Of a stretch of 64,000 bases of DNA, positions 438-17,915 are shown one piece after another. This DNA comes from Pseudomonas sp. ADAK13 (GTDB taxonomy: Bacteria; Pseudomonadota; Gammaproteobacteria; Pseudomonadales; Pseudomonadaceae), in NCBI RefSeq assembly GCF_012935715.1, contig NZ_CP052860.1:2356001-2420000 (forward strand). The letters run 5' to 3'. The translations under genes and the position numbers were made by a program. Within the stretch, counting starts at the first letter, position 1. Each line of letters starts with the position of its first letter. Below the pieces are notes generated by a model, which saw nothing but the letters and a program-made list of their open reading frames with translations, did not search any database and was not told the origin of the DNA.

Positions 438-460
438 CTCAAGGGCATACTCGGTCAAAA

Positions 461-550
461 TGTGGGAGCTGGCTTGCCTGCGATAGCGATCTGTCAGTTG
501 CCATCTTCATTGGCTGAGGCACCGTTATCGCAGGCAAGCCGGCTTCTACA
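461..550. repeat. REP/REPIN-type inverted repeat
   Basis: The left arm 'tgtgggagctggcttgcctg' (461-480) and the right arm 'caggcaagccggcttctaca' (531-550) are imperfect reverse complements separated by about 50 bases of non-conserved sequence. The same arms recur at 26788, 29676 and 38298. This is the architecture of paired REP sequences (REPINs) mobilised by RAYT transposases in fluorescent pseudomonads; no RAYT gene is visible here. Confidence 0.8.
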
Positions 551-662
551 GTTGATCGTGTTTGAGCCTCAGAAGATTCATCGTCCTGTCATCCCCGCGC
601 CGCCAAACCGTCATCGCACACGCCCATCCTGAACTCCCCGTACTCGCATTGGGAGACTCGAA

Positions 663-860
663 ATGGCTCGGCAATACGAAGAAAGCAACAGCACCGTCAA
701 GACCCGTCGCCAACAGGAAGACCAGCGCCGCATGGCCTTCCGTCGTGCAATTGAAGACCGCTGCGACCAGCGTCAATTGCAGCAGAACATCAGTGACTTT
801 CCGGAACTCCATTGGCAGGCACCCGCGGCTGCCCAGCGAAGCGCTCAGCCAGCGCGCTGA
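663..860 (+). CDS. Small basic protein, possibly PA3496-family putative envelope protein
   Basis: A 65-residue, very polar protein rich in Arg and Gln with a central 'RRQQEDQRRMAFRRAIED' segment. From memory this resembles a short Pseudomonas family annotated as PA3496-family putative envelope integrity protein, but I cannot verify this. There is no signal peptide or membrane segment. The last 23 codons run antisense to the 3' end of the convergent pycR gene, so this C-terminus is constrained by pycR coding and may be an extension. The first 45 residues lie outside pycR and look like the conserved part. Function unknown. Confidence 0.55.
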   Translation: MARQYEESNSTVKTRRQQEDQRRMAFRRAIEDRCDQRQLQQNISDFPELHWQAPAAAQRSAQPAR

Positions 861-1764
861 TCTGCAACCGCTCGCTGCGGATAAAGCCCAGGAACGCATG
901 GGCCACCGGTGACAGGCGCTTGGCCTTGGCCTGCACCAGGCACCAACTGCGGTACAGCGGCAGTTCTTCCACCGGCAGCTCCCTGAGCCCGCCGGTGGCC
1001 AGTTCCAGGTTGACCGCGTGGCGCGTCAGCAGCGCCACGCCCAACCCGGCGGTCACGCACTCGCGCTGCGCTTCGGCCGAAGACACTTCCACCGTCTGGG
1101 TGAAGTGCACACGCTTTTCCTTGAAGTACTCCTCGCACGCCATTCGCGTCCCGGAACCCGGCTCGCGCAACAGCAGCGTGTAAGGCTCCAGGTCCTGCAG
1201 GCGCAATGGCCCTTGATGACTCAGCGGATGATCGTGGGGCGCCACAGCGACGATCGGGTTGTTCAGGAACGGCAGGAATTCCAGGCCCATGTCCTGAGGC
1301 ACCATGGACATGATCACCAGGTCATCCCGGTTGTCTGAAAGCCGGCGAATCACCTGGGCGCGGTTGACCACCGTCAGGTGCAGGTTGACCTCCGGGTGCT
1401 GGCGCTTGAAGGCGGCAAACAGGTGCGGCACGAAGTACTTGGCGCTGGACTCCACCGCCAGTTTCAGCTGGCCTTGCAGCGAGCCCTGCATGTCGGAGAG
1501 CTGCATGTCGAGGTTTTCCAGGCGCCCGAAAATATCCCGGCTAGCCCGTTGCAGGGCTTCGGCCGCTTCAGTCATATAGAGCTTTTTGCCGACGTAATCG
1601 AACAACGGCTGGCCAAGCAGCTCTTCCAGCTGTTTGATTTGTAGGCTAACGGCCGGTTGCGTGAGTGACATTTCCTCGGCTGCGCGGCTGTAGGAACGCA
1701 AATCACAGACTTCATTGAAAATCTGCAATTGACGCAATGTCATACGCATCAATGACTTACGCAT
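790..1764 (-). CDS. pycR: LysR-family regulator of pyruvate carboxylase (PycR-like)
   Basis: A 324-residue LysR-type regulator. The N-terminal winged HTH covers about residues 8-66 ('LRQLQIFNEVCDLRSYSRAA', then 'TQPAVSLQIKQLEELLGQPLF') and a LysR substrate-binding domain covers about 95-300. It is divergent from pycA with 196 bp between the starts, and that gap holds a perfect 7-bp inverted repeat suited to LysR binding. In P. aeruginosa the gene in this position is pycR, reported to affect pycAB expression and virulence. The start at 1764 is preceded by a GGAAGG-like site; the internal ATGs at 1749 and 1743 are less well placed. The 3' end overlaps the convergent small gene by 71 bp. The effector is unknown. 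Confidence 0.85.
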   Translation of the reverse strand: MRKSLMRMTLRQLQIFNEVCDLRSYSRAAEEMSLTQPAVSLQIKQLEELLGQPLFDYVGKKLYMTEAAEALQRASRDIFGRLENLDMQLSDMQGSLQGQLKLAVESSAKYFVPHLFAAFKRQHPEVNLHLTVVNRAQVIRRLSDNRDDLVIMSMVPQDMGLEFLPFLNNPIVAVAPHDHPLSHQGPLRLQDLEPYTLLLREPGSGTRMACEEYFKEKRVHFTQTVEVSSAEAQRECVTAGLGVALLTRHAVNLELATGGLRELPVEELPLYRSWCLVQAKAKRLSPVAHAFLGFIRSERLQISALAERFAGQPRVPANGVPESH

Positions 1765-1800
1765 TATTAAAGCCTTCCCGCCAACCCCTGATGCGCTGAC

Positions 1801-1818
1801 TATAAGTCTTTACTTATA
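1801..1818. promoter_or_regulatory. Putative LysR operator between pycR and pycA
   Basis: TATAAGT-CTTT-ACTTATA is a perfect 7-bp inverted repeat with a 4-base centre. It contains the T-N11-A pattern typical of LysR-family sites and lies 37 bp before the pycR start and 143 bp before pycA. PycR binding here is inferred from position. Confidence 0.55.
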
Positions 1819-1960
1819 CACAGCCCAATTATTATTGATTTTTGTTAATCCCTGCGGGGGCATAGTGTGTGTCACGCGACTGCCATGAAACATTTGGTCA
1901 CGCGCCGACCCGGTTCCATCGGGTCGAAGTAGGTAGCAATCGGCTCAAGGGAATTTCCAA

Positions 1961-3376
<1,416 letters not shown>

Positions 3377-3387
3377 GGAATATAAGA

Positions 3388-5196
3388 ATGAGCAAGAAGA
3401 TCTTCGTAACCGACACCATCCTGCGCGACGCCCACCAATCGTTGCTGGCGACCCGCATGCGTACCGACGACATGCTGCCGATCTGCGACAAGCTCGACAA
3501 AGTCGGCTACTGGTCCCTGGAAGTCTGGGGCGGCGCGACCTTCGACGCCTGCGTACGCTTCCTGAAAGAAGACCCGTGGGAGCGCCTGCGCAAATTGCGT
3601 GCGGCACTGCCTAACACGCGCCTGCAAATGCTGCTGCGCGGCCAGAACCTGCTGGGCTACCGCCACTACAGCGACGACGTGGTCAAAGCCTTCGTCGCCA
3701 AGGCCGCCGTCAACGGTATCGACGTGTTCCGCATCTTCGACGCCATGAACGACGTGCGTAACCTGCGAGTGGCCATCGAAGCGGTAAAAGCCGCCGGCAA
3801 ACACGCCCAGGGCACCATTGCCTACACCACCAGCCCGGTGCACACCATCGAGGCGTTTGTGGCTCAGGCCAAACAAATGGAAGCCATGGGTTGCGACTCG
3901 GTGGCGATCAAGGACATGGCCGGCCTGTTGACCCCGTACGCCACCGGCGAACTGGTCAAGGCGCTGAAGGCCGAGCAAAGCCTGCCGATCTTCATCCACT
4001 CCCACGACACCGCCGGCCTGGCGTCGATGTGCCAACTCAAGGCCGTCGAGAACGGTGCCGACCATATCGACACCGCCATCTCCAGCTTCGCCTGGGGCAC
4101 CAGCCACCCGGGCACCGAGTCGATGGTCGCGGCCCTTAAAGGCAGCGAATTCGACACCGGCCTCAGCCTGGAACTGCTGCAGGAAATCGGCCTGTACTTC
4201 TACGCCGTGCGCAAGAAGTACCACCAGTTCGAAAGTGAATTCACCGCCGTCGACACCCGCGTGCAAGTCAACCAGGTACCGGGCGGGATGATTTCCAACC
4301 TGGCCAACCAGTTGAAAGAGCAGGGCGCGCTGAACCGCATGAGCGAAGTGCTGGCGGAAATCCCGCGGGTGCGTGAAGACCTCGGCTTCCCGCCGCTGGT
4401 GACTCCGACTTCGCAGATCGTCGGCACTCAGGCGTTCTTCAACGTGCTGGCCGGCGAGCGCTACAAGACCATCACCAACGAAGTGAAGCTGTACCTGCAA
4501 GGCGGCTACGGCAAGGCGCCGGGCACCGTGAATGAAAAACTGCGCCGCCAGGCCATCGGCAGCGAAGAGGTGATCGACGTTCGCCCGGCTGACCTGCTGA
4601 AGCCGGAAATGACCAAGTTGCGCGGGGAAATCGGCGCGTTGGCCAAGTCCGAAGAAGACGTGCTGACCTACGCGATGTTCCCGGACATCGGGCGCAAGTT
4701 CCTCGAAGAACGTGACGCCGGCACCTTGAGCCCTGAAGTGCTGTTGCCGATTCCTGAAGCCGGCGGCGTGGCCCGCGCCGGTGGTGAAGGCGTGCCCACC
4801 GAGTTCGTGATCGACGTGCACGGCGAAAGCTACCGCGTGGACATCACCGGTGTTGGCGTCAAGGCCGAAGGCAAGCGCCACTTCTACCTGTCCATCGACG
4901 GCATGCCGGAAGAAGTGGTGTTCGAACCACTCAACGAGTTCGTCAGCAGCGGCGGCAGCAAGCGCAAGCACGCCACTGCGCCAGGCCATGTCAGCACGGC
5001 GATGCCGGGCAACATCGTCGACGTACTGGTCAAGGAAGGCGACGTGGTGAAAGCCGGCCAGGCCGTGTTGATCACTGAAGCGATGAAGATGGAGACCGAA
5101 GTGCAGGCGGCCATCGCCGGCAAGGTCACCGCCGTTCACGTGGCCAAGGGCGACCGGGTCAACCCGGGCGAGATCCTGATTGAAATCGAAGGCTGA
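3388..5196 (+). CDS. pycB: Pyruvate carboxylase subunit B (carboxyltransferase plus biotin carrier; OadA-like)
   Basis: A 602-residue protein. The HMG-CoA-lyase-like TIM-barrel carboxyltransferase domain begins 'TDTILRDAHQSLLATRMRT' at about residue 8. The conserved carboxylase domain (PYC_OADA) follows, and the C-terminal biotinyl domain carries 'EAMKMETE' with the biotinylated Lys about 36 residues from the end. It moves the carboxyl group from biotin to pyruvate, giving oxaloacetate. OadA of the sodium-pumping oxaloacetate decarboxylase is closely related, but no oadB or oadG gene is present and pycA is directly upstream. The ATG at 3388 follows a GAGGAA site that overlaps the pycA stop. 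A strong terminator ends the two-gene operon. Confidence 0.93.
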   Translation: MSKKIFVTDTILRDAHQSLLATRMRTDDMLPICDKLDKVGYWSLEVWGGATFDACVRFLKEDPWERLRKLRAALPNTRLQMLLRGQNLLGYRHYSDDVVKAFVAKAAVNGIDVFRIFDAMNDVRNLRVAIEAVKAAGKHAQGTIAYTTSPVHTIEAFVAQAKQMEAMGCDSVAIKDMAGLLTPYATGELVKALKAEQSLPIFIHSHDTAGLASMCQLKAVENGADHIDTAISSFAWGTSHPGTESMVAALKGSEFDTGLSLELLQEIGLYFYAVRKKYHQFESEFTAVDTRVQVNQVPGGMISNLANQLKEQGALNRMSEVLAEIPRVREDLGFPPLVTPTSQIVGTQAFFNVLAGERYKTITNEVKLYLQGGYGKAPGTVNEKLRRQAIGSEEVIDVRPADLLKPEMTKLRGEIGALAKSEEDVLTYAMFPDIGRKFLEERDAGTLSPEVLLPIPEAGGVARAGGEGVPTEFVIDVHGESYRVDITGVGVKAEGKRHFYLSIDGMPEEVVFEPLNEFVSSGGSKRKHATAPGHVSTAMPGNIVDVLVKEGDVVKAGQAVLITEAMKMETEVQAAIAGKVTAVHVAKGDRVNPGEILIEIEG

Positions 5197-5226
5197 GTAA
5201 CAGCCTTCGAAACTACCGCTTAATCC

Positions 5227-5254
5227 TCGGGGGGGCATGTGCCCCCTTTTTTTT
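5227..5254 (+). terminator. Rho-independent terminator of pycAB
   Basis: GGGGGGC-ATGT-GCCCCC followed by a run of eight or more T, 30 bp after the pycB stop. It also lies just past the convergent autotransporter gene. Confidence 0.9.
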
Positions 5255-5266
5255 CGCCTGCACGAA

Positions 5267-6571
5267 TCAGAAGGCCAGGGTCCATTGGCCAGTCAGCCCT
5301 TGGTTGCGACTGTTGCTGCCAGCCTCGAAGGCGTAGGTCAGGCCCACGGTGTGTTGCGGCGACAGCACGAGGTCCAGCCCGGTGTGCAAGGCCAGGCTGT
5401 CACGGTCCAGGGCGGTGCCTTCAACCGTGAAGTCACTGTTGAACCCCGGTCGTTTTACCCAGGCGGAAGAGTGGCGCACGCTGCTGTCCACGTCGCCATA
5501 GAGATGCTTCCAGCGGGTGCTCAGGTGGGGTTTGAGGGCCATGTCGTTGTCCAGGGTGTAGGCGCTGGCCAGACGCACACCGAAGGTGCTGCTGAGGTTT
5601 TCCTGGGTCTGGGCGCCGACGTTCAGCGCGGTGAAACCGCCTTTTTCCTTGTAGCGGTCGCGGTGGTAACGCTGATACCCGACGCCGCCAAAAGGTTCGA
5701 CACTGAAGCTGCCCGCGTTCACCTGATAGCCCATCTCGGCAAAAGCGTTTTGGCTCTGGGCGTTGTATTTGCCGGTGGGCTGCTCGCGGTGATCAATAAA
5801 ATCAAAGTCCACGGTGCGTTTGTTCTTGCCCGCATGGCTGCTGTAGATCGCACCCAGGCGCAGTGCCAGCGGCCCGTCCTGGCGCACGGCGTACCCGCCC
5901 AGGTGCCAGCTGTCCAGTTCGCCCTTGAAGCGGTTGGCGCTCAGTTCGCTGGTGGACTTGGCACCCATCACGCCCACCCGCCAGGCAGGGTCCACGGCCC
6001 AGTCGGTACCCAGCACCAGGCCTTGGGTGCGTTGCTGCAAACCGAGGCTGCCGTGCTGCCCTTCGAGGTTGCCGGCATTGCCCAGGCCCTGGAGCCAGAA
6101 GCGGCCATGGCCCGGCGTATCGCGGTCGTCGCTCACCTGGCGCATGGCTGAAAGCAGGCTGGCGTTCAGCTGTTCCATGCTGTTTTGAGTGGCGCTGGCC
6201 AGGTTGGCATTCTGGCTGCCCGCCAGTTGCTCAAGCACCGCACCCACACGCCCTGGCTGCAGGTTGCCCAGCTCCCGGCCATAGTTTTCAAGTTGGTATT
6301 CTTCCCATTTGCTCAGTTCGCCCGATGCCAGCAGCGTATCCACGGCGTTATCCAGCACCTGGGCAACGTGCTGGCCATTACGGGTGGTTGCGTGGTCGGC
6401 GAAGTAAAAGTCCTCGCTCGGCTTGGCCGGAGCGGGGGGCTTGTGGCTGGGGGCCTGGACAAGCCACTCACTGTCTGGCTCGATCTCTGTCCGTGCCTGG
6501 GCGTATTGGAGGCTGGTGGCACCCATCGTGAGGGTGATCGCGAGCGCGAGTTGTTTCTTGATGAACGGCAT
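5267..6571 (-). CDS. Autotransporter beta-barrel protein with almost no passenger
   Basis: A 434-residue secreted protein with an N-terminal signal peptide (basic 'MPFIKKQ', hydrophobic core, 'AQA-R' cleavage about residue 27). A Pro-rich, helical linker of about 115 residues includes 'LEQLAGSQNANLASATQNSM'. A C-terminal autotransporter barrel (about 155-434) ends in Phe, as outer-membrane barrels do. The barrel closely parallels that of the 990-residue autotransporter next door (shared 'SFSVEPFGGVGYQRYHRD'-like, 'RWKHLYGDVDSS' and 'GSNSRNQGL' segments), so the two are paralogues. No beta-helical passenger is present, so it may work as a barrel alone, present only the linker, or be a degraded copy. 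The frame is intact. No protease motif seen. Confidence 0.85.
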   Translation of the reverse strand: MPFIKKQLALAITLTMGATSLQYAQARTEIEPDSEWLVQAPSHKPPAPAKPSEDFYFADHATTRNGQHVAQVLDNAVDTLLASGELSKWEEYQLENYGRELGNLQPGRVGAVLEQLAGSQNANLASATQNSMEQLNASLLSAMRQVSDDRDTPGHGRFWLQGLGNAGNLEGQHGSLGLQQRTQGLVLGTDWAVDPAWRVGVMGAKSTSELSANRFKGELDSWHLGGYAVRQDGPLALRLGAIYSSHAGKNKRTVDFDFIDHREQPTGKYNAQSQNAFAEMGYQVNAGSFSVEPFGGVGYQRYHRDRYKEKGGFTALNVGAQTQENLSSTFGVRLASAYTLDNDMALKPHLSTRWKHLYGDVDSSVRHSSAWVKRPGFNSDFTVEGTALDRDSLALHTGLDLVLSPQHTVGLTYAFEAGSNSRNQGLTGQWTLAF

Positions 6572-6682
6572 ATGAACCCGACTTCATTGATGAATTAGGC
6601 CGGGAATTTAGCGAGGTGAAGGGCAGATAAATGTCAGGCTACCGACCCTTCGTATGCGGGAGAAGTCTCTAGTGGGCGGCGA

Positions 6683-9655
6683 TTAAAAACTCATCTGCCA
6701 TTGCCCGATCAGCCCGTGATTGCGGCTATTACTGCCGATTTCACCGGTATAGCCCACACCCACCGTATGGCGGGCCGACAGGCCTACATCCAGTCCGGCC
6801 TCCAACAGCAGGCTGTCGCGGTCCAGAGCGCTGCCTTCGACATTGAATGCCGTGCCACCCATCAGGAAAGCCTGGCGCGTGCTGCTGTCCACATCACCGT
6901 AGGTGTGTTTCCAGCCGGCACTGACCCGTGGCGTGAGGCTGACGCCGTTGTCCAGTTGGCTCAGGTGGGCCAGTCGCAGGCCGAAGGTGCTGCTGAAATT
7001 GTCCTGGGTCTGCCCATCGACATGCAGGGCGGCGGCACCGCCTTTTTCGTTGTAGCTGTCGCGGTGGTAGCGCTGGTAGCCGAGGTTGGCGAACGGTTCG
7101 GCACTCAAGCGCCCACTGCCCATGGCGTAGCCCAGTTCGGCAAAGGCTTGCTGGCTGTTGGCGTCGTAGTCGCCTTTTAGGCGGTCACTGAAACCGTCGA
7201 AGGCCACGGTGCGCTTGCTGTCGCCTTGGTGCCCGCTGTACGCGGCGCCCAGGCGCAAGGCCAGTGGGCCGCTTTGACGCATGGCGTAGATGCCCGCGTG
7301 CCAGCTGTCGACGCTGCCGTCGACGCCGGTGGTGTCCAGGTCGGTCTTCGAATAACCGCCCAGCACGCCTACGCGCCAGTCGCTATCTACGGCCCAATCG
7401 GCGCCCAGCACGCTGCCCCTGGTGCGCTGGGTCAGGCCGTTGCTGCCGTGGTCGCCGTCGAGCTTGCCGTAGCTGCCGATGCCTTGCAGCCACAGACGGC
7501 CGCGAGCGTTGGGGTCGTTGAGGTTGCGCGCCTCGGCGGGTACGCCGGTGGCGGCCAATGCGGGTGTGTCTTTTTGATCAAGGCCAACGAGCAACCCGGC
7601 ACCGCCGCCCAATTGATGCATGGCGCTCAGCATGCTGCTGCCGACCTGGGCGCTGGCGCCGAGGGTGGCGCTGGTCAGGTTGGCGGTGCTGCTGCCCGCG
7701 AGTTGCTCGATGGCGGCACCGGCGCTGCTGTTGGTGGTGTTGAGCAGGGCGTTATACAGCGTGTTGTTCTTGCCCAGGCTCGCCAGGGCGTTGGCGGCGC
7801 TGGCGCCGTTGCCGCTGTTGGCGAACTGATTGAAGGCCACGTCGTTGCGGGTATAGGTCAGGCCAACCTGAGTGGGGCTGTAATCCAGCGTCGGGGTGAG
7901 GAAGGCGTAGTCGCTGGTGACCTTGCCGAACGTGCCGTTGATACTGCCGGCTTGCAGCACCGTGTAGTGGCTCTGCCACGGGTAGGTGCCGGTGCCGGGA
8001 TTGATCGCCAGGGTCGCGCCATTCAGGTAGGCGGTGCCACCGACCTGGACCGGTGCGCTGCTGCCGTCGGCATTCACGCCGTAGGCCAGGGTCGAGCCGC
8101 TGGTCATGGTCAGGTCGCGGGTGATAGTGGCGGTGCCGAGCGCCGTGTTGGTCTGCAAGGTGCCTTTGACCAACAGGCTGCCGACGCTGCCGCCACCGGC
8201 ATAAATACCGCCTTCATCGACGGTCAGGTTGCCGGCGATCCCGCCCTGGTTGATCAACTTGGCGCCGCTGAAAATCTCGCCGCCGTCGCTGAAGTCGCCG
8301 CTGCCGGTGAGGGTCCAGGTGCCTTGCTTGACGTCCAGCCATTCGAAGTTGCGACTGTCACCAAAGCTGCCGCCGGTGGCGTCGTCCATGGTCAGGCGGT
8401 CGTAGCCGGTGCCGCCGTCCACCACACCCACAAAGCGGCTGCCGCCGAGCAGGGTCAGCGTGTCATTGCCACCGCCCAAATCCAGGGCCAGGCCGTTGCT
8501 GCCGCTGATCAAGCCGGCGTTGACCACCGTGTCGGCAAATTCGCCGACGAACTTCACGCCGAAGCCGTTCAGGCCCTGGATGGTGCCGTGGTTGATCAGG
8601 GTAGTCGCGGCAAGTCCCGGGCCGTCGCTGCCATCGTCCACCAGTACGGCGTTATTGGCGCCGCTCACCAGCGCGCCCGCACCGTTGAACACGTAGCCAC
8701 CGCCGAGGGCGATGCCTTCGCTGCCGTTGGCAAAACCGTTCTTGTCGACGCCACCGGCGCCCACACCCTGGATGATCCCGTAGTTTTCGATGTGGGCGAT
8801 CTTGTCGATGTCCACGCCGTCACCGTCGCCATCGGGTTGCAGCCCGGAGTAGGCACCCGTGATGGTGCCGTAGTTGATCACGGTGCCGTCGCCGTCGGAG
8901 CCAAAGCCCGAGCCGTTGCGGCCGATCACCGTGCCGTAGTTGGTCAGCGTGGCGCCCAGGTCGGTGGTGATGCCGTGGCGCCCGCCGGAAATCAGGCCGT
9001 AGTTGGTGACCGTCACCCCGGTGGCGGAGTCGATGTCGACACCGTCGAACTTGTCATCGCGCGAGTGGGTATCGCCGGTGGAAATCTCGCCGTAGTTGGT
9101 GATGGTGGCGTTGGCACCGGTCTTCATGCCGTCGCTGGCATCGCCGCGAATCAACCCGCCGAGGCGGTTGATGATAGTGGTCGTGACGTTGGGGCTGCGG
9201 ATCGCATCCAGGTCCAGCCCTTGGCCAGTGGTGGAGCGAATGGTGCCGCTGTTGTCGATCAACAAGCTGCCGCTGGCGAAGTTGCTGTCGATGCGCAGCG
9301 CGTCGTTGGCCCCCTGGATCACCCCGCCGGCACGGTTGTAGAGGGTGTAATTGCGCGTGCCGGTGAGGTCACCGTTGCTGTCGATGGCGCGGCCGCCGGT
9401 GGAAGTGATTTTGCCGGAGTTGTCGATCACCACGCCGGCACCGCTGGTGCTGCCCGCCAGGGTAACGGCGACTTTGGAGGTGGTGATGCTGCCCGGCGCC
9501 GAAATCGTCAGCGAGTCGCTGCCACCCAGGGTTTGCCCGGTGGTGGTCGGGGTGTCGATCTGCAGGGTTTTGGGCGGAGCGGGGGCTGCGTCAGCAAAGC
9601 CGCTGCTTACCAGCAGGCCAAGGGTGAGTGCGAGGCGCTGAGGTGACGGGGGCAT
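6683..9655 (-). CDS. Autotransporter with beta-helical passenger (type Va secretion)
   Basis: A 990-residue protein with a signal peptide cleaved near 'SGFADA-A' (about 24). A passenger of about 600 residues is built of repeated Asn-Tyr-Gly rungs such as 'ITNYGEIS', 'VTNYGLISGG', 'LTNYGTVIG' and 'VINYGTITGA', a right-handed beta-helix signature. A helical linker ('AAIEQLAGSSTANLTSATLG', about 670) leads to an autotransporter barrel of about 270 residues ending in Phe. No catalytic Ser protease, GDSL-lipase or RGD motif was seen, so an adhesin or biofilm role is the best guess. It lies 111 bp upstream of the related short barrel gene on the same strand. Confidence 0.88.
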   Translation of the reverse strand: MPPSPQRLALTLGLLVSSGFADAAPAPPKTLQIDTPTTTGQTLGGSDSLTISAPGSITTSKVAVTLAGSTSGAGVVIDNSGKITSTGGRAIDSNGDLTGTRNYTLYNRAGGVIQGANDALRIDSNFASGSLLIDNSGTIRSTTGQGLDLDAIRSPNVTTTIINRLGGLIRGDASDGMKTGANATITNYGEISTGDTHSRDDKFDGVDIDSATGVTVTNYGLISGGRHGITTDLGATLTNYGTVIGRNGSGFGSDGDGTVINYGTITGAYSGLQPDGDGDGVDIDKIAHIENYGIIQGVGAGGVDKNGFANGSEGIALGGGYVFNGAGALVSGANNAVLVDDGSDGPGLAATTLINHGTIQGLNGFGVKFVGEFADTVVNAGLISGSNGLALDLGGGNDTLTLLGGSRFVGVVDGGTGYDRLTMDDATGGSFGDSRNFEWLDVKQGTWTLTGSGDFSDGGEIFSGAKLINQGGIAGNLTVDEGGIYAGGGSVGSLLVKGTLQTNTALGTATITRDLTMTSGSTLAYGVNADGSSAPVQVGGTAYLNGATLAINPGTGTYPWQSHYTVLQAGSINGTFGKVTSDYAFLTPTLDYSPTQVGLTYTRNDVAFNQFANSGNGASAANALASLGKNNTLYNALLNTTNSSAGAAIEQLAGSSTANLTSATLGASAQVGSSMLSAMHQLGGGAGLLVGLDQKDTPALAATGVPAEARNLNDPNARGRLWLQGIGSYGKLDGDHGSNGLTQRTRGSVLGADWAVDSDWRVGVLGGYSKTDLDTTGVDGSVDSWHAGIYAMRQSGPLALRLGAAYSGHQGDSKRTVAFDGFSDRLKGDYDANSQQAFAELGYAMGSGRLSAEPFANLGYQRYHRDSYNEKGGAAALHVDGQTQDNFSSTFGLRLAHLSQLDNGVSLTPRVSAGWKHTYGDVDSSTRQAFLMGGTAFNVEGSALDRDSLLLEAGLDVGLSARHTVGVGYTGEIGSNSRNHGLIGQWQMSF

Positions 9656-9741
9656 GGCGGGCGACCTTGTTTTTAGAAAGAGTCGACCTGTATAGCGGAG
9701 GTTTTTTACAGAATGATGGCGGGGAGGTGACAGCAGGCAGT

Positions 9742-9830
9742 GTTGGCCGGGCTTGCCCGCGATGGGGGTGTGTCAGTCGACATATTCATCGTCTGAACCA
9801 CCGCCATCGCGGGTAAGCCCGGCTCCTACA
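9742..9830. repeat. REP/REPIN-type inverted repeat, variant
   Basis: The arms 'ccgggcttgcccgcgatgg' (about 9748-9765) and 'ccatcgcgggtaagcccgg' (about 9804-9823) face each other around about 40 bases. They are a variant of the repeat at 461, 26788, 29676 and 38298. Confidence 0.7.
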
Positions 9831-9852
9831 GGGATGGGTGGTGTTTACAGAT

Positions 9853-10524
9853 TCAGGCTCGGCACTCCACCAGCGTCTTCAGTTGGCCCGAACCTGCCTG
9901 GTTTTCATCCGATAACCAGCGCTCAAACCCTGCTCCAATCGCCGGCCATTCCCCATCCAGGATCGAATACCACGCCGTGTCGCGGTTCTTTCCTTTCACT
10001 ACGGTGTGTTGGCGAAACACGCCTTCAAAACTGAATCCCAATCGCTCTGCCGCGTTTTTGGAGCGGGCGTTGGCGTTGTTGCACTTCCACTCCAGCCGGC
10101 GATTGCCCAGCTCAAACGAATGCTTGGCCAGCAGGTACACCGCTTCGGTGCTTTTCGGCGAGCGTTGCATCGGTGCACCGAAGGTCACGTGGCCGATTTC
10201 GATGCGGCCCTGCTCGGGCACGATGGACATCAGGCTGAGAATGCCTTGCACGTCGCCGCTGGCCTTGTCGATCACGCTGAAGAAGTACGGGTCGTTGTGG
10301 GTCGCATGGTTGTTCAGCCAGGCATCGAAGGCGGCGCGCTCGGGGAACGGGCCGTAAGGCAAATAGTCCCACAACTTCGGATCAGCACCGGGGCCTTGCA
10401 GGGCGTTGAACAGGTCATCGCCATGGCGGGCCGGGTCGAGTTTTTCCAGGCGCACGAAGCGCCCTTCGATAAGGGTGACGGTGGGCGCCGGAACGCCTTT
10501 CCAATCGGCCAATGATGTCGACAT
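9853..10524 (-). CDS. GNAT N-acetyltransferase, RimJ/RimL type
   Basis: A 223-residue GNAT protein of the Acetyltransf_3 (RimJ/RimL) kind. It has an early 'RFVRLEKLDPARHGDDLFNA' strand-helix and the core 'GRIEIGHVTFGAPMQRSPKS'. The acetyl-CoA-binding segment and 'LEWKCNNANARSKNAAERLG' (about 165-184) are typical of this subfamily, followed by 'FEGVFRQHTVVKGKNRD'. The ATG at 10524 is preceded by a GGAG site and lies 10 bp from the stop of the next GNAT gene, so the three minus-strand genes here form one operon. The acceptor could be a protein N-terminus or a small amine; the sequence does not decide. Confidence 0.88.
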   Translation of the reverse strand: MSTSLADWKGVPAPTVTLIEGRFVRLEKLDPARHGDDLFNALQGPGADPKLWDYLPYGPFPERAAFDAWLNNHATHNDPYFFSVIDKASGDVQGILSLMSIVPEQGRIEIGHVTFGAPMQRSPKSTEAVYLLAKHSFELGNRRLEWKCNNANARSKNAAERLGFSFEGVFRQHTVVKGKNRDTAWYSILDGEWPAIGAGFERWLSDENQAGSGQLKTLVECRA

Positions 10525-10534
10525 GCTGCTCTCC

Positions 10535-10981
10535 TTAAAGACCTTTGCGAAACTGGATAAAGCCGGGGCGTTCGGCAATGCGTTCGTACAGCTGGATGGC
10601 GGTGGCATTGGTCTCGTGGGTCAGCCAGTGGACCTTGCAGCAGCCGTCCGCCTTGGCGGTGGCGTAGACGAATTCGATCAGTTTGCGACCCACCCCGGTG
10701 CCGCGCTGGGCCGGGTCTACCAGCAAATCCTGCAGGTAGCAGGAGTTCTCGATGCTCCAATTGGAACGGTGGTAGATGAAGTTGACCATACCCACGGCCT
10801 TGCCGTCCTGCCAGGCCAGGGCCGAATGGGTGGGCTCATTGGCGTCGATTAGGCGTTGCCAGGTGCTCTGGCTGACGGCGTCCGGCAACTCGGTATTGTA
10901 GAAGCGCAGGTAGGCCTGCCACAGGGGCAGCCACGCGGCGTGGTCGGCGGCAGTGACTGGGCGGATCTCGATCTGGCTCAT
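10535..10981 (-). CDS. GNAT N-acetyltransferase
   Basis: A 148-residue GNAT protein. It starts 'SQIEIRPVTAADHAAWLPLW', and the acetyl-CoA motif A is 'LQDLLVDPAQRGTGVGRKLI' (about residues 85-104), with the R/Q-x-x-G-x-G/A core intact, followed by 'NATAIQLYERIAER'. This layout is common in small-molecule (amine/amino-acid) acetyltransferases. The ATG at 10981 overlaps the stop of the upstream FMN-binding gene as ATGA, indicating translational coupling. Substrate unknown; the partner genes suggest polyamine or amine stress (inference). Confidence 0.88.
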   Translation of the reverse strand: MSQIEIRPVTAADHAAWLPLWQAYLRFYNTELPDAVSQSTWQRLIDANEPTHSALAWQDGKAVGMVNFIYHRSNWSIENSCYLQDLLVDPAQRGTGVGRKLIEFVYATAKADGCCKVHWLTHETNATAIQLYERIAERPGFIQFRKGL

Positions 10982-11613
10982 GTTGGCTCCTTGGGAATAA
11001 AGCGGGCGAGGGTCTGGTCGCGTACGTCGGTGCTGGCCGCCAGTCCTTCGCGAACACCGGCAATGTCGGCGGCACTGCGGTTCTGGCTGAGTTTGCGCTT
11101 GCCTTCCAGGCGCTGGATCGGCAGGGCAAAGCCGACAATGGCCTTGAGCATGCCGTCGATGTAGTCGGCCGGGGCGTCGCTGACTTTCCAGGGCTGGGCG
11201 CGCGGGGATTCGTGGCGGTCCGTCAGGGCGGTGACCAGGCTGAGCAGGCGGTCGGCGTCGGTGAAGACGTCGGCGGTGCCGTAGGCGTGTACCGCGATGT
11301 AGTTCCAGGTCGGCACGACTTTGCCGTGTTCGGCCTTGGCCGGGTAAAACGCCGGGCTGATGTAGGCCTCGGCGCCGGCAAAAATCACCAGGGCCTCGCT
11401 GCCATTCTGCAAGTCTTGCCACTGCCGGTTGGCTTTGGCCAGGTGCCCGTACAGCGTGCCGTTGGGGCCTTCGTCGGGATTCAGCAGCAGCGGCAAGTGA
11501 CTGGCCTGCAGGCCTTGCTCGCCAAAGGTGATCAACTGCGCCAGGCGGGTGTGGCGGATCAGTTGCTGGATTTCGGGCAAGTCATCGAGGGCAAAGGCGC
11601 GTGGTGTGTACAT
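10978..11613 (-). CDS. FMN-binding negative regulator, PaiB family
   Basis: A 211-residue protein of the PaiB/FMN_bind_2 split-barrel family: it starts 'MYTPRAFALDDLPEIQQLIR', has the conserved 'HLAKANRQW' and 'YISPAFYPAK' segments, and 'VVPTWNYIAVHAYG' (about 99-112). In Bacillus the paiAB pair couples a GNAT acetyltransferase with PaiB in negative control of protease and sporulation genes; here too a GNAT gene is coupled directly (ATGA). The ATG at 11613 follows an AAGGAA site; the open frame upstream has no such site. It is divergent from the MocR-type gene, with 104 bp between them holding both promoters. Confidence 0.85.
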   Translation of the reverse strand: MYTPRAFALDDLPEIQQLIRHTRLAQLITFGEQGLQASHLPLLLNPDEGPNGTLYGHLAKANRQWQDLQNGSEALVIFAGAEAYISPAFYPAKAEHGKVVPTWNYIAVHAYGTADVFTDADRLLSLVTALTDRHESPRAQPWKVSDAPADYIDGMLKAIVGFALPIQRLEGKRKLSQNRSAADIAGVREGLAASTDVRDQTLARFIPKEPT

Positions 11614-11717
11614 GAAGATTTTCCTTGGCGAATGCCTGCATCCTAGGCAGGCTATTGGTTCGATGTAAGAGCCATCTGTGCTCCATTTCATAGGTCCAAT
11701 TTGCCGGAGCGTGTGCC

Positions 11718-13265
11718 ATGCCCCCGTTAGAGCCGCCGCTGTCGTTCAACCCTGCCGGCATCGAGCTGGACCGCCGCCAGGGCCTCACGCGCCAGCTGTA
11801 CCAGGCCCTGCGCCAGCGGGTACTGGACGGGCGGCTGGTCAGTGGCACCCGGCTGCCGGCCAGCCGTGACCTGGCAGCGGCGCTGTCGATTTCCCGTAAC
11901 AGCGTGGTTCGCGCCTACGATCAGCTGTATGCCGAAGGCTTCATCGAAGGGCGGGTGGGCGATGGCACCTATGTGGCGCAACTGCCGCAGACACCCCTCA
12001 GCTCCAAAAAACTATCCACAAAAGTATCCACAGGGTTATCAACAGGCTTATCCCCAGGGTTATCCACAAAACGCCCGGATTTACCTGTAATTTCATCCAG
12101 TCAAGTTATCCACAGTGCGGCCCTGGGGCGGGTAGAAAACAACCATTTGCCGTTGCCGCCGACCGGTCCTCCGCGGGCGTTTCGCGTGGGTATTCCGGCG
12201 TTCGACCTGTTTCCCTTCGACGTCTGGGCCAAGCTGAATGCGGCTTTCTGGCGCAAGCCGGACCTGCAGCAGCTGTGTTATGGCGACCCGGCAGGGGATG
12301 AGCGCTTGCGGGGGCTGATCGCTGCCTATTTGCGCAGTTCCCGGGGCATGCACTGCACGGCTGAACAAATAGTGATCACCAGCGGCGCGCAGCAGGCAAT
12401 CAGCCTTTGTGCACAGCTGCTGGTGGCGCCGGGGGATGGGGTGGCGGTGGAAAACCCGGGTTACCGTGCGGCAGGCCATGCGTTCGCACTTGCCGGGGCA
12501 AAACTCCACGGGGTGGCCGTGGACAGTGAAGGCATTGATTGCTCGGCGCTGAACGCCATCGACAGTTGCCGCCTGGCCTATGTCACGCCCTCGCACCAAT
12601 ACCCGATGGGCGTGGTCATGAGCCTGGCCCGGCGTCTGGAATTGCTGGCCTGGGCCGAGCGCACCGGCGGCTGGATCATCGAGGACGACTACGACGGCGA
12701 ATACCGCTACAGCGGCGCGCCGTTGGCGCCTCTGGCGGCGCTGGATCGCAGTGGGCGAGTGCTCTATGTCGGCACGTTCGGCAAGGTCGCGTTTCCGGCG
12801 TTGCGCCTGGGTTACCTGGTGCTGCCGATGGCACTGGTGCAGCCCTTCGCCCGGCGTCGGGCGGTGGATGTGCGCCATTCCGAGGTCAGCACCCAGGCGG
12901 TGATGGCCGAGTTCATGGCTTCCGGGCACTTCCAGCGGCATGTGCGGCGCATGCGTCGCGCCGCCTTGAGCCGGCGCAACGCGTTACTGGCCGAATGGCC
13001 ACAGGGTGTCGACGGTGTGGGCAGCGTGCCAGCGGTGGCGGCGGGGCTGCATTTGACGATACCGGTGCAAGGGCTGGAGCGCGAGCAGGCATTGATCGCG
13101 AAAGCGGCTGGCGTCGGGGTGGAAATCAACGGCCTGAGCAATTATTGGTTGCCGGATTCCGTCACGCCGCAGGATCGGCGTGCCGGCCTGGTGTTGGGCT
13201 TCGCGGCCGTGCCCGAGGCGCAGATCAGCCAGGCGCTGGCACGGTTGCGCCTGGCCTGGCAATAA
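11718..13265 (+). CDS. MocR/PdxR-type regulator (GntR HTH fused to PLP aminotransferase fold)
   Basis: A 515-residue MocR-family protein. The GntR winged helix is at about 10-85 ('LTRQLYQALRQRVLDGRL', 'SRDLAAALSISRNSVVRAYD'). A linker runs about 95-150, and a fold-type I aminotransferase domain covers about 155-510 with 'TSGAQQAI', 'EDDYDGEYRY' and the PLP lysine region 'VGTFGKVAFPALRLGYLVLP' (K about 356). Such proteins sense PLP or a PLP adduct and regulate a divergent gene, here the paiB-GNAT-GNAT operon (inference). The linker is encoded by a 12-bp tandem repeat reading Ser-Thr-x-x, in which each DNA unit is a DnaA-box-like nonamer. The gene ends 6 bp from the convergent toxin-like gene. 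Confidence 0.9.
   Translation: MPPLEPPLSFNPAGIELDRRQGLTRQLYQALRQRVLDGRLVSGTRLPASRDLAAALSISRNSVVRAYDQLYAEGFIEGRVGDGTYVAQLPQTPLSSKKLSTKVSTGLSTGLSPGLSTKRPDLPVISSSQVIHSAALGRVENNHLPLPPTGPPRAFRVGIPAFDLFPFDVWAKLNAAFWRKPDLQQLCYGDPAGDERLRGLIAAYLRSSRGMHCTAEQIVITSGAQQAISLCAQLLVAPGDGVAVENPGYRAAGHAFALAGAKLHGVAVDSEGIDCSALNAIDSCRLAYVTPSHQYPMGVVMSLARRLELLAWAERTGGWIIEDDYDGEYRYSGAPLAPLAALDRSGRVLYVGTFGKVAFPALRLGYLVLPMALVQPFARRRAVDVRHSEVSTQAVMAEFMASGHFQRHVRRMRRAALSRRNALLAEWPQGVDGVGSVPAVAAGLHLTIPVQGLEREQALIAKAAGVGVEINGLSNYWLPDSVTPQDRRAGLVLGFAAVPEAQISQALARLRLAWQ
12012..12114 (+). repeat. 12-bp tandem array of DnaA-box-like nonamers inside the MocR gene
   Basis: Nonamers matching TTATCCACA start at 12012 (CTATCCACA), 12024 (GTATCCACA), 12036 (TTATCAACA), 12048 (TTATCCCCA), 12060 (TTATCCACA, perfect) and 12106 (TTATCCACA, perfect). 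The first five are spaced exactly 12 bp and all six point the same way. TTATCCACA is the established DnaA-box consensus. The array encodes the Ser-Thr-Gly/Lys-Leu repeats of the inter-domain linker. DnaA binding is inferred. Confidence 0.75.
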
Positions 13266-13271
13266 CCCGGC

Positions 13272-16200
13272 TCAGGTGGCGGGCGCGGGGGCCTTGCCCA
13301 AGAACAGTGACCGGGCCAGGTGCGGGCCGATTTTGGCGCGATAGATGGCCCGGCGTAGCTGTACGGACATGCCTTCATATTCTTCGAAGGCGCCCCCTAG
13401 CCGACGTTGTTCCGGGGTTTTCAGGTGGGCCACAATGTATGCCTCGTTGGGCGCATTCAGGCTTGCGTAGTGAAAGTGGGCATACCACAGCGCCCGGCTG
13501 GTTTTCTGGTCGCGTATCTCGTACTCCTGCATGAAATCCTTTTTCGGGCCTTTGAGCCTCCGGCGAACACCTGACGCATGAATGGTCACCTCTCCTTCGG
13601 TGGACAACAGTTCTATATGGGCGGCCGTGGGCAGGCGATTCTTGAGCATGTCGAGCCTGACGCGCCGACCTGTGCGGTAGAGCTTTTTCACGGCCTCATC
13701 AAGTTGTCGGTTCATCGCTTCGGAGGCGATATTGTCGGTTTCGTTAGTGGCGTTGGCGGCTTGCTCGACGACGCGCTTGGCCTGTTCCAGGGTTTGCGCC
13801 CGGCGCTCGAATTTTTCCTCGATCTCCACCGGCAGCCGTTGGGGTTGGTCAGCCTTTGCGGTGGTACGCTCGATAAAAGCATCGACATCGTCCAGCAATG
13901 CCTGGGCCTCTTTCAGGCTGTTGGGCACGCTTACGGCAGGTGCACGAGTGGCGGGCGGGGACGGGTGCGCGTGTTCTACCCAGTTGCCTGAATCCTTTTT
14001 GTGAAAGGTGGCAATGACCTTATGGGTCAGGGGTTCCTTGATGTCTACAAAGTCGGGATCGTTTTCGCGAGGTTCACCGACGACCACACCCTTGAAGCGA
14101 GTCTTGATGACCGTCTTTTTGGGCCGGGCAGATGCGCTTGATGACGCGCCTGCCTCGGCTCTGGCGTCCTTGGCTTTGCGTTCCCGCAGCGCAGAGCTCA
14201 GAGACTGCATGGCCCGTTGGGCGTACTCGTCGATCTGTTTGCGCAGGTCCTCCACCGAATCCTTCACTATCAGCTCGGGGTATTCGCCTGGCAGATCCAG
14301 CAGATTCTGGTTGATCAAGGTGAATTGATCGGCGACGTCATCCAGCGCCTCGATGTGCGCGTCCAGGTCGAGTTCAGCCCGCGTCTCCACCAGCTCACGG
14401 GAACTCTGGACGGTGAGTTGGGCGGCCTGGACAATGTCGTTGATGCTGTTGCGCGCCTCAGTCATGTCTGCGGTGCTGTTCTCCTGGAGGCACAGGGTGC
14501 GAGCGAGTGAAATACGGAAACCCTTCAAGTCATCCAGGTCAAACTGCGGCAGGTTTTCGCGGGTGCGCAGTTCCAGCTTTACCCCCTCGGCGCCCAGTTC
14601 CCTGAGGTATTTGAAGCGCGAACGAACGTACTCCAGCTGGGTGATCATATTCAGGGTTTTATCGGCCACGCGCCGACGGGCGAAGACCTCCTGCGGGTCA
14701 CTGTCCATACCCTGTCCGCTGGCGGCCAGGTCTTTTTGGAAATCCGTCACTTGTTCGTTGATGCCGGCTTGCGCAATGAGCAACTGGCTTTCCAGGTAGT
14801 TGAGCATGCGTTTCGAATAGTCCGGCACAGCGTCGAGCAGGTTCAATGACTTCAGTTGGGCGATCGGTGCGTCGTACTCCCCCCGACGTTTATCCAGCGT
14901 GGCAATGAAGGTGGTGAGTGCGCTGGCGGACGTGCCGGGTGATGCGGCTCTGCTGACGCTACGGGCGGCCTCAAGCGCGGCACTTTCTTTGGCTTCCTGG
15001 CGGTCGAACGCCTCCAGTTGTTCACGCAGCCCGGTAATCGTGACGGGTTTGAGCCGCTGGCCTTTCTTCATCCGGCTGCGAAACCCTGCGCCGCGCAGGC
15101 GCAGGCGTGTATCGATAAACCATTGGCCCACGCGGTTGTTGACCAACACCGGGCCCAGGCGCTCGGGCTGTTTGGCGTCGATGATCATCGCCGTATCGTT
15201 TTCGTCCACTTGCACCTTGAACCAGCGTTCGCCCACCGGCGCATACCACTGATCATTGAGCGGGTAGAGGTGCTGGTGCGAGCCAGGCTGGGTTTGCTGC
15301 GCGCCCAGTGTTTCGGGGCGCGTGACGCTGAAGCTGTCGAGGGTCTTTTTCAGGCTCAACGGCTTGCGGGTCAAGGCGCCGAGGGTGTGCAGCGAAAGCT
15401 CGTGGCCGCCGGGCAGGTCGGGTGTCTGGATATCCGGTAGCTGAGTCGTGGGCAGTTGGCTTGCCGTTTCGGTCGTGGGGAATGTTTCCGGAGCGCCCAC
15501 GACGGGTTTCTCGGCCCGCACAGCTGACGGCTGACGGCTGGCCAGGTGCAACGCCAGGGCCATGCCCAGGTTGAGGAAAATGTCGGTCAAGGCGGACCAT
15601 TTGGCCTCGCTGTCGCCACGTTCGCTGGCGTCGATGGCTTCCTGCACGTCATTGATCAGTTGGCCGATCCAGGCCGCAGTGCCAACGGTTTTGCCCAAAA
15701 AGGGCAGGGCGGCATTGAAGATCGTCCAGCCGGCCCGTTTGAAACTTTCCCAGCGGGATTCTGCGTTGGACACCGACTGCTTGTCGGCGAGGTCCACCAG
15801 TGCCTTCGCGTTGGCGGCGAACAGCGCCGCCAAATCGTCGTCGTGGAGGGTCTGGCTGCCGAGAATGACCGGCCCGGTCATGCTCAACGCCAGCCACGGC
15901 TCTACCACCAGCGCGGACAAGGTCCTGGGCGAAGCAAGGAGGGCGCCGGGAAACACAAACTGTGCGTAGTCGGAACGCACGCTGTCGGGTAGCCAGGCCA
16001 ACACCGACTCGCGCAGTTCGGTGGATTGTTTGATGGCGTAAATCAGGTTGTTCGGTGAGGCGAACTGCATCAACTGTCTCGTGGCCTGGGGGCGATACAA
16101 GAGGCAGGGGCCGTTGGCCGGGTTCTGCGGGCCTATGACGAACATGTTGCTGACCTGATCGGCGGCCTGGCTGGTGCGGCGCGTGGGAATAAACGCCAGG

Positions 16201-17915
16201 GGCCGAATGACCACGGTGTAGCCGTTCACGCGGCGCAGGTTGGGGTCGGATGCCATGGCCGCGCAGACATAACGGTAGCCTTGCTCATCCACACCGTACT
16301 GGCTGCGAATCTTGTATTGCAGCGCCAGCAACGGCAGTTGCAGGCGCAGTTGATCGGTATAGAGGGTTTGCCGCGCCAGTGACTGCACCGGGTCGTCGAG
16401 CAGGGTGGTTTTGACCAGCTTGGGATATTGATCGCCAATGTTCACTTGGGTGATCAGGTCTTGCAGGTACGTCACGCTCATCCAGCTCGGCAGGCTACGA
16501 CCATCGTTGTACTGCGCGACCTTGTTGCCCAACGGCAGCGCGATCAGGTTTTGCAGGGCCAGTTCTTCGAGGCTGAAGGTGACGGTGCTGGTCAGGCCGG
16601 GGGCGGTGAATAACCCCCAGACGACCTGGCTGGTCACGGTAATTTGCACGAGCCTGAGCTTGAGCATCAGTTGCTGGCTGAGTTGAGTACCATTTGCCAC
16701 CAGGCCCAGGTCGGTTTTCTGGGCGGGTGTCAGGGTCTTGGCCATGGCGTCGGCGATGGCCTGCAGGGCGTAGTCGCCAATCAGCGGAATGCTGTCCTGG
16801 TAGGTTTTATTGCCGGTGCGGTTATTGAGTGCGGCGATATCGAACAGGTAGCGGCTATAGCGGGACAGGTCGGCAGAGCTTGCGGTGTTCAACCAATCGG
16901 GCAGGGCATCGCTGATTTTTTCCAGCTTGTCCCTGTCGTCCGACGACAACTGCCCGAACTCCAGTTGCCCACGCTCGGCGATCTCATCGTTGGTCCCCAG
17001 GGACGGGGTCCCCGGGGCGATTCTGCCAATGGCATCGAGTTGCAGGCCGATAAGGGCGCAGGCCTGGTACTCGAAAAAATCCCCCTGGGGTTCGTAGAGC
17101 CGCCATTGCAGCGCTTTATCCTCGGGGTTGGTCGCTTGCAGGACCAGCGCCTTGCCCAGGTCGTCCAGGCTGTCGAACGGTTGGTACCCGTTGGCAATCG
17201 AGTACGTGAGGATCATCGTGTGTTGGTCATGGGTGCCGATCAGGATGGCGAGCGCGGCGAGGCTGATGTGTCGGGTATGGGGACCTTGGTCGATATCGAT
17301 GTCGATCAGGTAGGCCCGGCTGCGGTATTTGTCATTGGGCAGGCGCACGGCGTAATCCGGGTACAGGAATACGTTCTTCGCCATGGCACATTCGTCCTCG
17401 CCCCAACCCACGGAGTCCTTGATATCCCAGGCATTGCGCAAGGCGTTGGCGAAGGCCTGCCAGCGAGTGCCCCGGGGGCCATCGGTCTGGTTCCAGAACT
17501 CCAGTTGTTGTTCCTGATACGCGATGAACAGCAGCGGAGCACATTCATTGATCAGCCGGGCGATGGCGTCGATACGCACCGGCAGGTGGATGTCCGGGCC
17601 GCTGGCGGCGCGGTCGGTCAGGTAGTGCTCACCGTCGATGTACACCACTGGTTTGTTGGAAACGGCGCGCCGTGCGAGTGCGCCGGTGACCGACTCGTGA
17701 TGAGGCAAGCCGGGCACGACCTGGTCATTGACGATTAACCAGACTGGCGAGACGACAACGGCCAGGTCCGGGTCGATATCCAGTTCGGGATACAGCTCCT
17801 TCAACGCCGGCCGCAAAATTTTTGCAGCCACTTCGCGGATGGACGGGCCGGTGGTCAATTGGGTCAGCAGCGAATTGCCGTTGAGGGATTCTAATTCGGT
17901 GGAGGGCTGAGGCAT
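13272..17915 (-). CDS. Large DUF6543/dermonecrotic-toxin-like protein
   Basis: A 1547-residue protein. I recognise the layout of the large Pseudomonas proteins carrying the DUF6543 'dermonecrotic toxin N-terminal' domain, mainly from the segment 'LPDWLNTASSADLSRYSRYL' (about residue 340) followed by 'DSIPLIGDYALQAIADAM'. Two hydrophobic stretches at about 730-790 ('AALPFLGKTVGTAAWIGQLI', 'IFLNLGMALALHLA') could enter a membrane. After a Pro/Thr-rich hinge (about 810-850) comes a long charged, helical region (about 960-1400), and the end 'VQLRRAIYRAKIGPHLARSLFLG' is of a kind I recall in this family. No signal peptide, secretion tag, catalytic motif or immunity gene is evident. An effector or toxin role is inferred; the activity is unknown. 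Confidence 0.7.
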   Translation of the reverse strand: MPQPSTELESLNGNSLLTQLTTGPSIREVAAKILRPALKELYPELDIDPDLAVVVSPVWLIVNDQVVPGLPHHESVTGALARRAVSNKPVVYIDGEHYLTDRAASGPDIHLPVRIDAIARLINECAPLLFIAYQEQQLEFWNQTDGPRGTRWQAFANALRNAWDIKDSVGWGEDECAMAKNVFLYPDYAVRLPNDKYRSRAYLIDIDIDQGPHTRHISLAALAILIGTHDQHTMILTYSIANGYQPFDSLDDLGKALVLQATNPEDKALQWRLYEPQGDFFEYQACALIGLQLDAIGRIAPGTPSLGTNDEIAERGQLEFGQLSSDDRDKLEKISDALPDWLNTASSADLSRYSRYLFDIAALNNRTGNKTYQDSIPLIGDYALQAIADAMAKTLTPAQKTDLGLVANGTQLSQQLMLKLRLVQITVTSQVVWGLFTAPGLTSTVTFSLEELALQNLIALPLGNKVAQYNDGRSLPSWMSVTYLQDLITQVNIGDQYPKLVKTTLLDDPVQSLARQTLYTDQLRLQLPLLALQYKIRSQYGVDEQGYRYVCAAMASDPNLRRVNGYTVVIRPLAFIPTRRTSQAADQVSNMFVIGPQNPANGPCLLYRPQATRQLMQFASPNNLIYAIKQSTELRESVLAWLPDSVRSDYAQFVFPGALLASPRTLSALVVEPWLALSMTGPVILGSQTLHDDDLAALFAANAKALVDLADKQSVSNAESRWESFKRAGWTIFNAALPFLGKTVGTAAWIGQLINDVQEAIDASERGDSEAKWSALTDIFLNLGMALALHLASRQPSAVRAEKPVVGAPETFPTTETASQLPTTQLPDIQTPDLPGGHELSLHTLGALTRKPLSLKKTLDSFSVTRPETLGAQQTQPGSHQHLYPLNDQWYAPVGERWFKVQVDENDTAMIIDAKQPERLGPVLVNNRVGQWFIDTRLRLRGAGFRSRMKKGQRLKPVTITGLREQLEAFDRQEAKESAALEAARSVSRAASPGTSASALTTFIATLDKRRGEYDAPIAQLKSLNLLDAVPDYSKRMLNYLESQLLIAQAGINEQVTDFQKDLAASGQGMDSDPQEVFARRRVADKTLNMITQLEYVRSRFKYLRELGAEGVKLELRTRENLPQFDLDDLKGFRISLARTLCLQENSTADMTEARNSINDIVQAAQLTVQSSRELVETRAELDLDAHIEALDDVADQFTLINQNLLDLPGEYPELIVKDSVEDLRKQIDEYAQRAMQSLSSALRERKAKDARAEAGASSSASARPKKTVIKTRFKGVVVGEPRENDPDFVDIKEPLTHKVIATFHKKDSGNWVEHAHPSPPATRAPAVSVPNSLKEAQALLDDVDAFIERTTAKADQPQRLPVEIEEKFERRAQTLEQAKRVVEQAANATNETDNIASEAMNRQLDEAVKKLYRTGRRVRLDMLKNRLPTAAHIELLSTEGEVTIHASGVRRRLKGPKKDFMQEYEIRDQKTSRALWYAHFHYASLNAPNEAYIVAHLKTPEQRRLGGAFEEYEGMSVQLRRAIYRAKIGPHLARSLFLGKAPAPAT

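Follow-up and report, generated by a model that had tools for sequence, protein, structure and literature searches.

The DNA analysed here (the window) is a stretch of 64,000 nucleotides from the chromosome of Pseudomonas sp. ADAK13 (genome G000 among those compared). Positions 11718..13265 of its plus strand form an open reading frame for a MocR-type regulator of 515 amino acids, in agreement with the initial annotation: the GntR-type helix-turn-helix (PF00392, residues 24-86) and the aminotransferase-like domain (PF00155, residues 187-425) both score over the Pfam cut-offs. The NCBIfam model of PdxR (NF052282) is also matched, at 420 bits versus a cut-off of 320, which gives the regulator's family name rather than a tested function. 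A large gene with a ToxA_N domain (PF20178) adjoins the regulator on the minus strand at 13272-17915, and an FMN_bind_2 gene (PF04299; 10978-11691, minus strand) is divergently oriented across a gap of 26 bp and is followed by GNAT-type open frames. The FMN_bind_2 gene is a possible regulatory target. The two domains of the protein are joined by a low-complexity, LST-rich linker (11970..12180, plus strand), which measures from GTYV to FRVG mostly 65-77 residues in those orthologues that carry the array described below (99 residues in L045; L036 and L046 were unparsed, and L044 is without the first anchor).

Domain borders place inside this linker, where the annotation had put it, an array of six nonamers resembling binding sites (boxes) of the initiator DnaA, which begins 294 bp downstream of the regulator's start codon. 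A recount of the window positions bore out the original description of five nonamers at 12-bp steps and a sixth 46 bp further on, two of them perfect and four with one mismatch, all on the plus strand. Box 1 (CTATCCACA, 12012..12020) and box 4 (TTATCCCCA, 12048..12056) have at most one mismatch in 43 and 44, respectively, of the 45 parsed orthologues; the final six bases of box 2 (GTATCCACA, 12024..12032) are TCCACA in 45 of 45; and box 3 (TTATCAACA, 12036..12044) is the most degenerate, with at most one mismatch in 5 of 45. Boxes 5 (12060..12068) and 6 (12106..12114) are both perfect here (TTATCCACA), start 46 bp apart, and are perfect in 46 and 40, respectively, of the 47 orthologues with the array. 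The window contains 12 nonamer matches at one mismatch or fewer versus 5.62 (sd 2.28) in shuffled sequences, 12 being reached by 0 of 100 shuffles, and has no second cluster comparable to the array in the same scan. The G000 genome (7.3 Mb) was ranked for clusters by pattern searches and by a full count in the 300 kb around oriC: box pairs at 12-bp phase (at most three mismatches) occur at 22 places genome-wide, and four successive pairs together are found at the array locus alone. The G+C content is 45% in the array and 65% in the host gene.

Orthologues of the regulator were drawn from 54 genomes of the same genus. The five-box array is present in 47 of them (array score of at least 38 of 45) and absent in seven (L048-L054, array score 19-25), which still keep the regulator, with a linker of 45 residues. 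Box 6 is altered in seven orthologues, being one base off in L010 and having drifted from its position in L035, L037, L042, L043, L046 and L047. Across 398 same-genus genomes, the exact pair box 5-N37-box 6 was found in 238 and a reversed-pattern control had no match; among the exact-pair places listed, one lies outside the locus, namely the second of those in G164. All seven orthologues without the exact pair that were taken from the top-scoring rows retain the run of five boxes and depart by a single base in box 5, in box 6 or in each of the two, so 238 genomes is the minimum for the array. An orthologue of the regulator at E ≤ 1e-150 is present in 375 of the 398 genomes and absent at that threshold from 23 (16 of the 385 that are at least 90% complete). 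Because 7 of 54 orthologues are without the array and 23 of 398 genomes without an orthologue, the array is not indispensable. A three-box same-strand pattern gave 15 matches in 11 of 18 complete genomes, every one of them at the array locus, and its reversed control gave one match, in G041; of the seven complete genomes unmatched, G010, G018, G034 and G046 carry an array too degenerate for the pattern. In a scan of named genomes for the nonamer pair, at least 119 stretches were found and 80 were tested with the regulator by tblastn (E ≤ 1e-40); the 27 matching stretches comprise all 26 with Pseudomonas titles and one Paucimonas-titled MAG. In bacteria the nonamer pair is thus not confined to this locus, and many of its other occurrences may be due to chance.

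The annotation had offered, as an alternative, that the repeats resemble DnaA boxes by chance of codon choice. This is untenable: the nonamers are conserved, they are written in rare codons, random recoding does not produce them, and the out-of-frame box 6 is kept. Codon statistics were taken from 46 parsed orthologues, 45 of them with the array (L033 and L047, in which the array is present, and six array-less orthologues were unparsed). Boxes 1-5 are read as TTA TCC ACA (LST) and box 6 as GTT ATC CAC AGT (VIHS); because box 6 is read in a different frame from boxes 1-5, the only motif common to all boxes is one of DNA, and box 6 keeps its nonamer at the fixed 46 bp despite its frame. In the 45 parsed array genes, rare codons fill the boxes: leucine is encoded by TTA in 113 of 172 cases within boxes versus 87 of 2649 in the rest, threonine by ACA in 202 of 207 versus 56 of 701, and serine by TCC in 158 of 199 versus 233 of 1432. 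Random synonymous recoding of the 45 genes reached the observed count of boxes (at most one mismatch) in 0 of 45,000 trials, the mean per gene being 4.58 as observed versus 0.23 after recoding. Entropy at third codon positions is 0.05 in box 5 against a gene mean of 1.15, which ranks third of 483 windows. At box 2 the residues vary (VST, LST, PST, IST or SST) around the fixed TCCACA. The alignment of orthologues, which the annotation had named as a check, thus favoured the DNA: the nonamers, the 12- and 46-bp phasing and the place near oriC are conserved, and the encoded residues vary. On this sequence evidence, the boxes do not arise as a side effect of protein coding and are under selection at the DNA level. 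The locus appears to be a genuine, dual-coded DnaA-box array that has been conserved, with a DNA element superimposed on the coding sequence of the linker.

The array was also said to be origin-proximal, and this holds: dnaA of G000 lies at 2248116-2249612 on the minus strand, with 118 kb between its 5' end and the regulator gene. The distance was measured exactly in 47 array genomes: in 45 of them the gene lies to the 5' side of dnaA, 40-160 kb away, and the median for all 47 is 91 kb. The exceptions are G161, where the array is 133 kb from dnaA on the opposite side, and G029, where it is 1.33 Mb away. A pair of perfect boxes lies about 24.5 kb from the array in G029, much as in G000, so the whole stretch was probably moved by rearrangement. 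These distances come from 17 of 21 genomes (G012 and G014, which have no orthologue, G041, which has no array, and G052, in which dnaA is split over contig ends and the array is about 68 kb from an end, were left out) and from 47 more that were hand-picked from exact-pair rows on contig C1, 64 placed genomes in total. For 17 of the 64, the distance (41-240 kb, ±50 kb) was obtained by wrapping around a genome whose length was rounded to 0.1 Mb; these stand outside the count of 45 in 47. The 64 are not a random sample, because all of them carry the array. Among complete genomes without the array, G041 alone was examined; its regulator orthologue and dnaA are about 1.36 Mb apart.

Perfect boxes are crowded around oriC. 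G000 has 168 copies of TTATCCACA versus 18 of the reversed word; the 300-kb stretch between 2.15 and 2.45 Mb has 45 perfect boxes, all within 2.216-2.369 Mb and two of them in the array, and 100 kb sampled elsewhere have none. A strand bias of the perfect boxes to the right of oriC, considered from 100 of the 168 places listed, was rejected on a direct count, which shows both strands. The zone of perfect boxes in G000 runs from 2216836 to 2368114, and window positions 1-12114 are its outer end. Such zones, which reach about 30-60 kb out from dnaA in one direction and about 120-160 kb in the opposite one, perfect boxes being scarce just beyond, were also seen in G049, G003 and G005 and, mirrored, in G161, and perfect boxes crowd near oriC in the array-less G041 as well. 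Outward from the array, perfect boxes are missing from the 82 kb to 2.45 Mb in G000, from 112 kb in G049 and from the 49 kb examined in G161; the next one lies 64 kb out in G005 and 1.1 kb out in G003. In most of these genomes the array forms the outer limit of the box-rich zone.

Within the oriC-proximal zone of G000 the array is the tightest cluster, its six boxes (at most one mismatch) all lying on one strand and spanning 103 bp. Upstream of dnaA, six boxes span 273 bp on mixed strands, and the word TTATCCACA occurs there four times. A third cluster in G000 (2258323-2258611) has six such boxes in 289 bp about 9 kb from dnaA, and box clusters are also found in G049 and G003, at about 5 kb from dnaA, and in G041, at about 7 kb; these are perhaps the second origin-like region of pseudomonads. 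The array of G049 has five boxes in 103 bp and its dnaA region six in 273 bp. G003 has only three array boxes at one mismatch or fewer versus seven upstream of dnaA, so in at least one species another cluster is richer than the array. An alignment of G000 with G049 shows 24 of the 45 oriC-proximal perfect boxes of G000 unchanged at the corresponding place and the rest changed or unalignable; the array therefore belongs to a wider oriC-proximal set. Many of the 24 kept boxes lie in long open frames (the frames having been found mechanically).

By its sequence and positional features, the array is predicted to work like an oriC-proximal DnaA-box cluster, with several boxes clustered outside oriC and yet near it (118 kb in G000). 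A close parallel in kind is the set of DnaA-box clusters (DBCs) of Bacillus subtilis, which are described as lying near oriC and are thought to lower free DnaA (Okumura 2012; PMC5295017). The B. subtilis clusters likewise lie outside the origin; the array differs in being one tight, directional 12-bp run in a reading frame, and in its conservation throughout much of a proteobacterial genus. In Escherichia coli, boxes are reported to be dense near oriC and DnaA to be titrated on the chromosome (Olivi 2025, PMC12371093). Boxes crowd near oriC in Pseudomonas too, but the E. coli enrichment, for which titration is proposed in that report, is broad and statistical, whereas in Pseudomonas the array is a distinct element conserved in sequence, accompanied by further conserved boxes within open frames. 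With closely spaced boxes of differing strength on a single strand, the array resembles the DnaA-oligomerising region of oriC (the left half in E. coli; also L065 and L066, below), from which it differs in having no AT-rich neighbour, in being far from dnaA and in lying inside a gene. Identity as an origin was rejected: inspection found GC-rich flanks and no AT-rich unwinding element adjoining the array, and dnaA is 118 kb away. The host protein fits the MocR/PdxR-type regulators by domain content; to our knowledge no DnaA-box array has been described elsewhere in that family, and none appears among the papers listed by a literature search.

Similar spacing was found outside the genus. Same-strand triples at 12-bp phase occur in 18 of 244 genomes across the order (5 of 244 for the reversed control), and in none of the four genomes from other genera of the same family. 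In L065 and L066, from another family, such triples lie at about 1480-1710 in an AT-rich intergenic region upstream of dnaA, a gene assignment supported by DnaA domains, and this region is probably oriC. Triples at 12-bp phase were also observed inside glyS (about 1501-1533 in L057, L058 and L059, all three sampled genomes of one genus in a further family; glycyl-tRNA synthetase beta by PF02092 for L057 and L059), and a run of CTATCCACA at 12-bp phase lies in a SPOR-domain open frame of another family (L061:1477-1557).

We consider it probable, with moderate confidence, that the coding-embedded array takes up DnaA soon after initiation, through predicted binding, cooperativity and titration. 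Because the array is close to oriC (roughly 50-160 kb), at usual fork speeds it would be copied within minutes of initiation; the new copies would take up DnaA, and this uptake would help to prevent immediate re-initiation. The two perfect boxes, 5 and 6, would anchor DnaA, from which a cooperative head-to-tail run of ATP-DnaA would spread across the weaker boxes, from 4 to 1, an arrangement that direct repeats are reported to favour (PMC10316083). No match to SeqA was found in any of 10 genomes, the E. coli control being positive, which leaves room for titration. The corresponding search for Dam gave one match over the cut-off in the 10 genomes (G049) and six below it. Putative Hda-like short DnaA homologues turned up in the search for DnaA, which indicates that other controls of initiation exist. 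It counts against titration that the array's two perfect and four weaker boxes join 43 other perfect boxes in the same 300 kb, that some members of the genus have no array or no such gene, that G003 has a richer cluster elsewhere, and that 1.33 Mb separate the array from dnaA in G029. The location within a gene counts against it too, as strong transcription through datA abolishes the datA effect in E. coli (PMC5010248).

Uptake need not be the whole activity: if the array is an element of the datA type, DnaA assembled on it would stimulate hydrolysis of the ATP bound by DnaA (DDAH), a possibility that we find doubtful. The E. coli datA region, which we take to lie at 94.6-94.7 min, has four boxes at one mismatch or fewer within about 250 bp, and the array likewise gathers several boxes in a short stretch at a conserved distance from oriC. 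Directional boxes would suit head-to-tail ATP-DnaA, and the array has a conserved position to one side of oriC, which is also reported of datA (PMC5010248). However, datA is described as non-coding and dependent on an IHF site (PMC4585315), with its boxes dispersed on both strands, whereas the array is coding and its layout, with every box on the same strand, is unlike that of datA. The strict IHF consensus WATCAANNNNTTR is present within 350 bp of box 5 at none of 47 loci, although real sites can be degenerate. The annotation had suggested a DnaA-binding locus of the datA or DARS kind, DARS being the element that promotes release of ADP from DnaA via a core of three boxes. Its first half, as a prediction of binding, is supported by the conserved nonamers, phasing and position; its second half so far is not, and the array was not filed as datA because it is coding, within a frame (11718-13265) that is open in the orthologues listed, and because no strict IHF site was found.

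DnaA is a known transcription factor, and when bound to the array, which is in the coding region and 294 bp past the start codon, it might block elongation or otherwise control the regulator gene, linking that gene to replication. This seems unlikely, for there is no box at one mismatch or fewer between window positions 1823 and 12011, which include the regulator's promoter region, and such control needs no conserved gene dosage near oriC, yet the position is conserved. It is improbable that DnaA on the array acts as a structural landmark that marks the outer edge of the origin domain for organisation or segregation: the next perfect box is indeed far out in G000, G049, G005 and G161, but G003 has one only 1.1 kb further out and the array of G029 is remote from dnaA altogether. 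Binding of some other protein, such as the regulator itself, in whose gene the sites are located, would make the match to the DnaA consensus a coincidence; this is highly improbable, given that the two strongest boxes are letter-perfect copies of the word found four times upstream of dnaA and that the seven array-less orthologues retain the regulator. Expansion of the linker by tandem duplication, with a likeness to DnaA boxes from codon choice only, would account for a low-complexity, LST-rich linker with 12-bp repeats, and has next to no chance of being correct, being already contradicted by the rare codons, the recoding trials, the out-of-frame box 6 and the genus-wide spacing.

Early uptake of DnaA by the array may be one part of a larger scheme, in which Pseudomonas times replication largely by initiator titration on conserved, coding-embedded, oriC-proximal boxes, and the array in the MocR-type gene is the strongest discrete element, a dual-coded, datA-like ATP-DnaA filament device. 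We put this forward tentatively, as a possibility that falls short of being probable. Among the titles and abstract openings listed by searches of the open PMC library, outside which most subscription journals lie, none reports a DnaA-box array of this sort in Pseudomonas. The control that limits pseudomonads to one round of replication per cycle, with no SeqA in 10 genomes, seems to be poorly defined. The array could be erased by synonymous changes with the protein untouched, which offers a direct test of replication control. Its conservation suggests that reading frames can harbour conserved DNA for replication control, which would escape searches limited to non-coding sequence.
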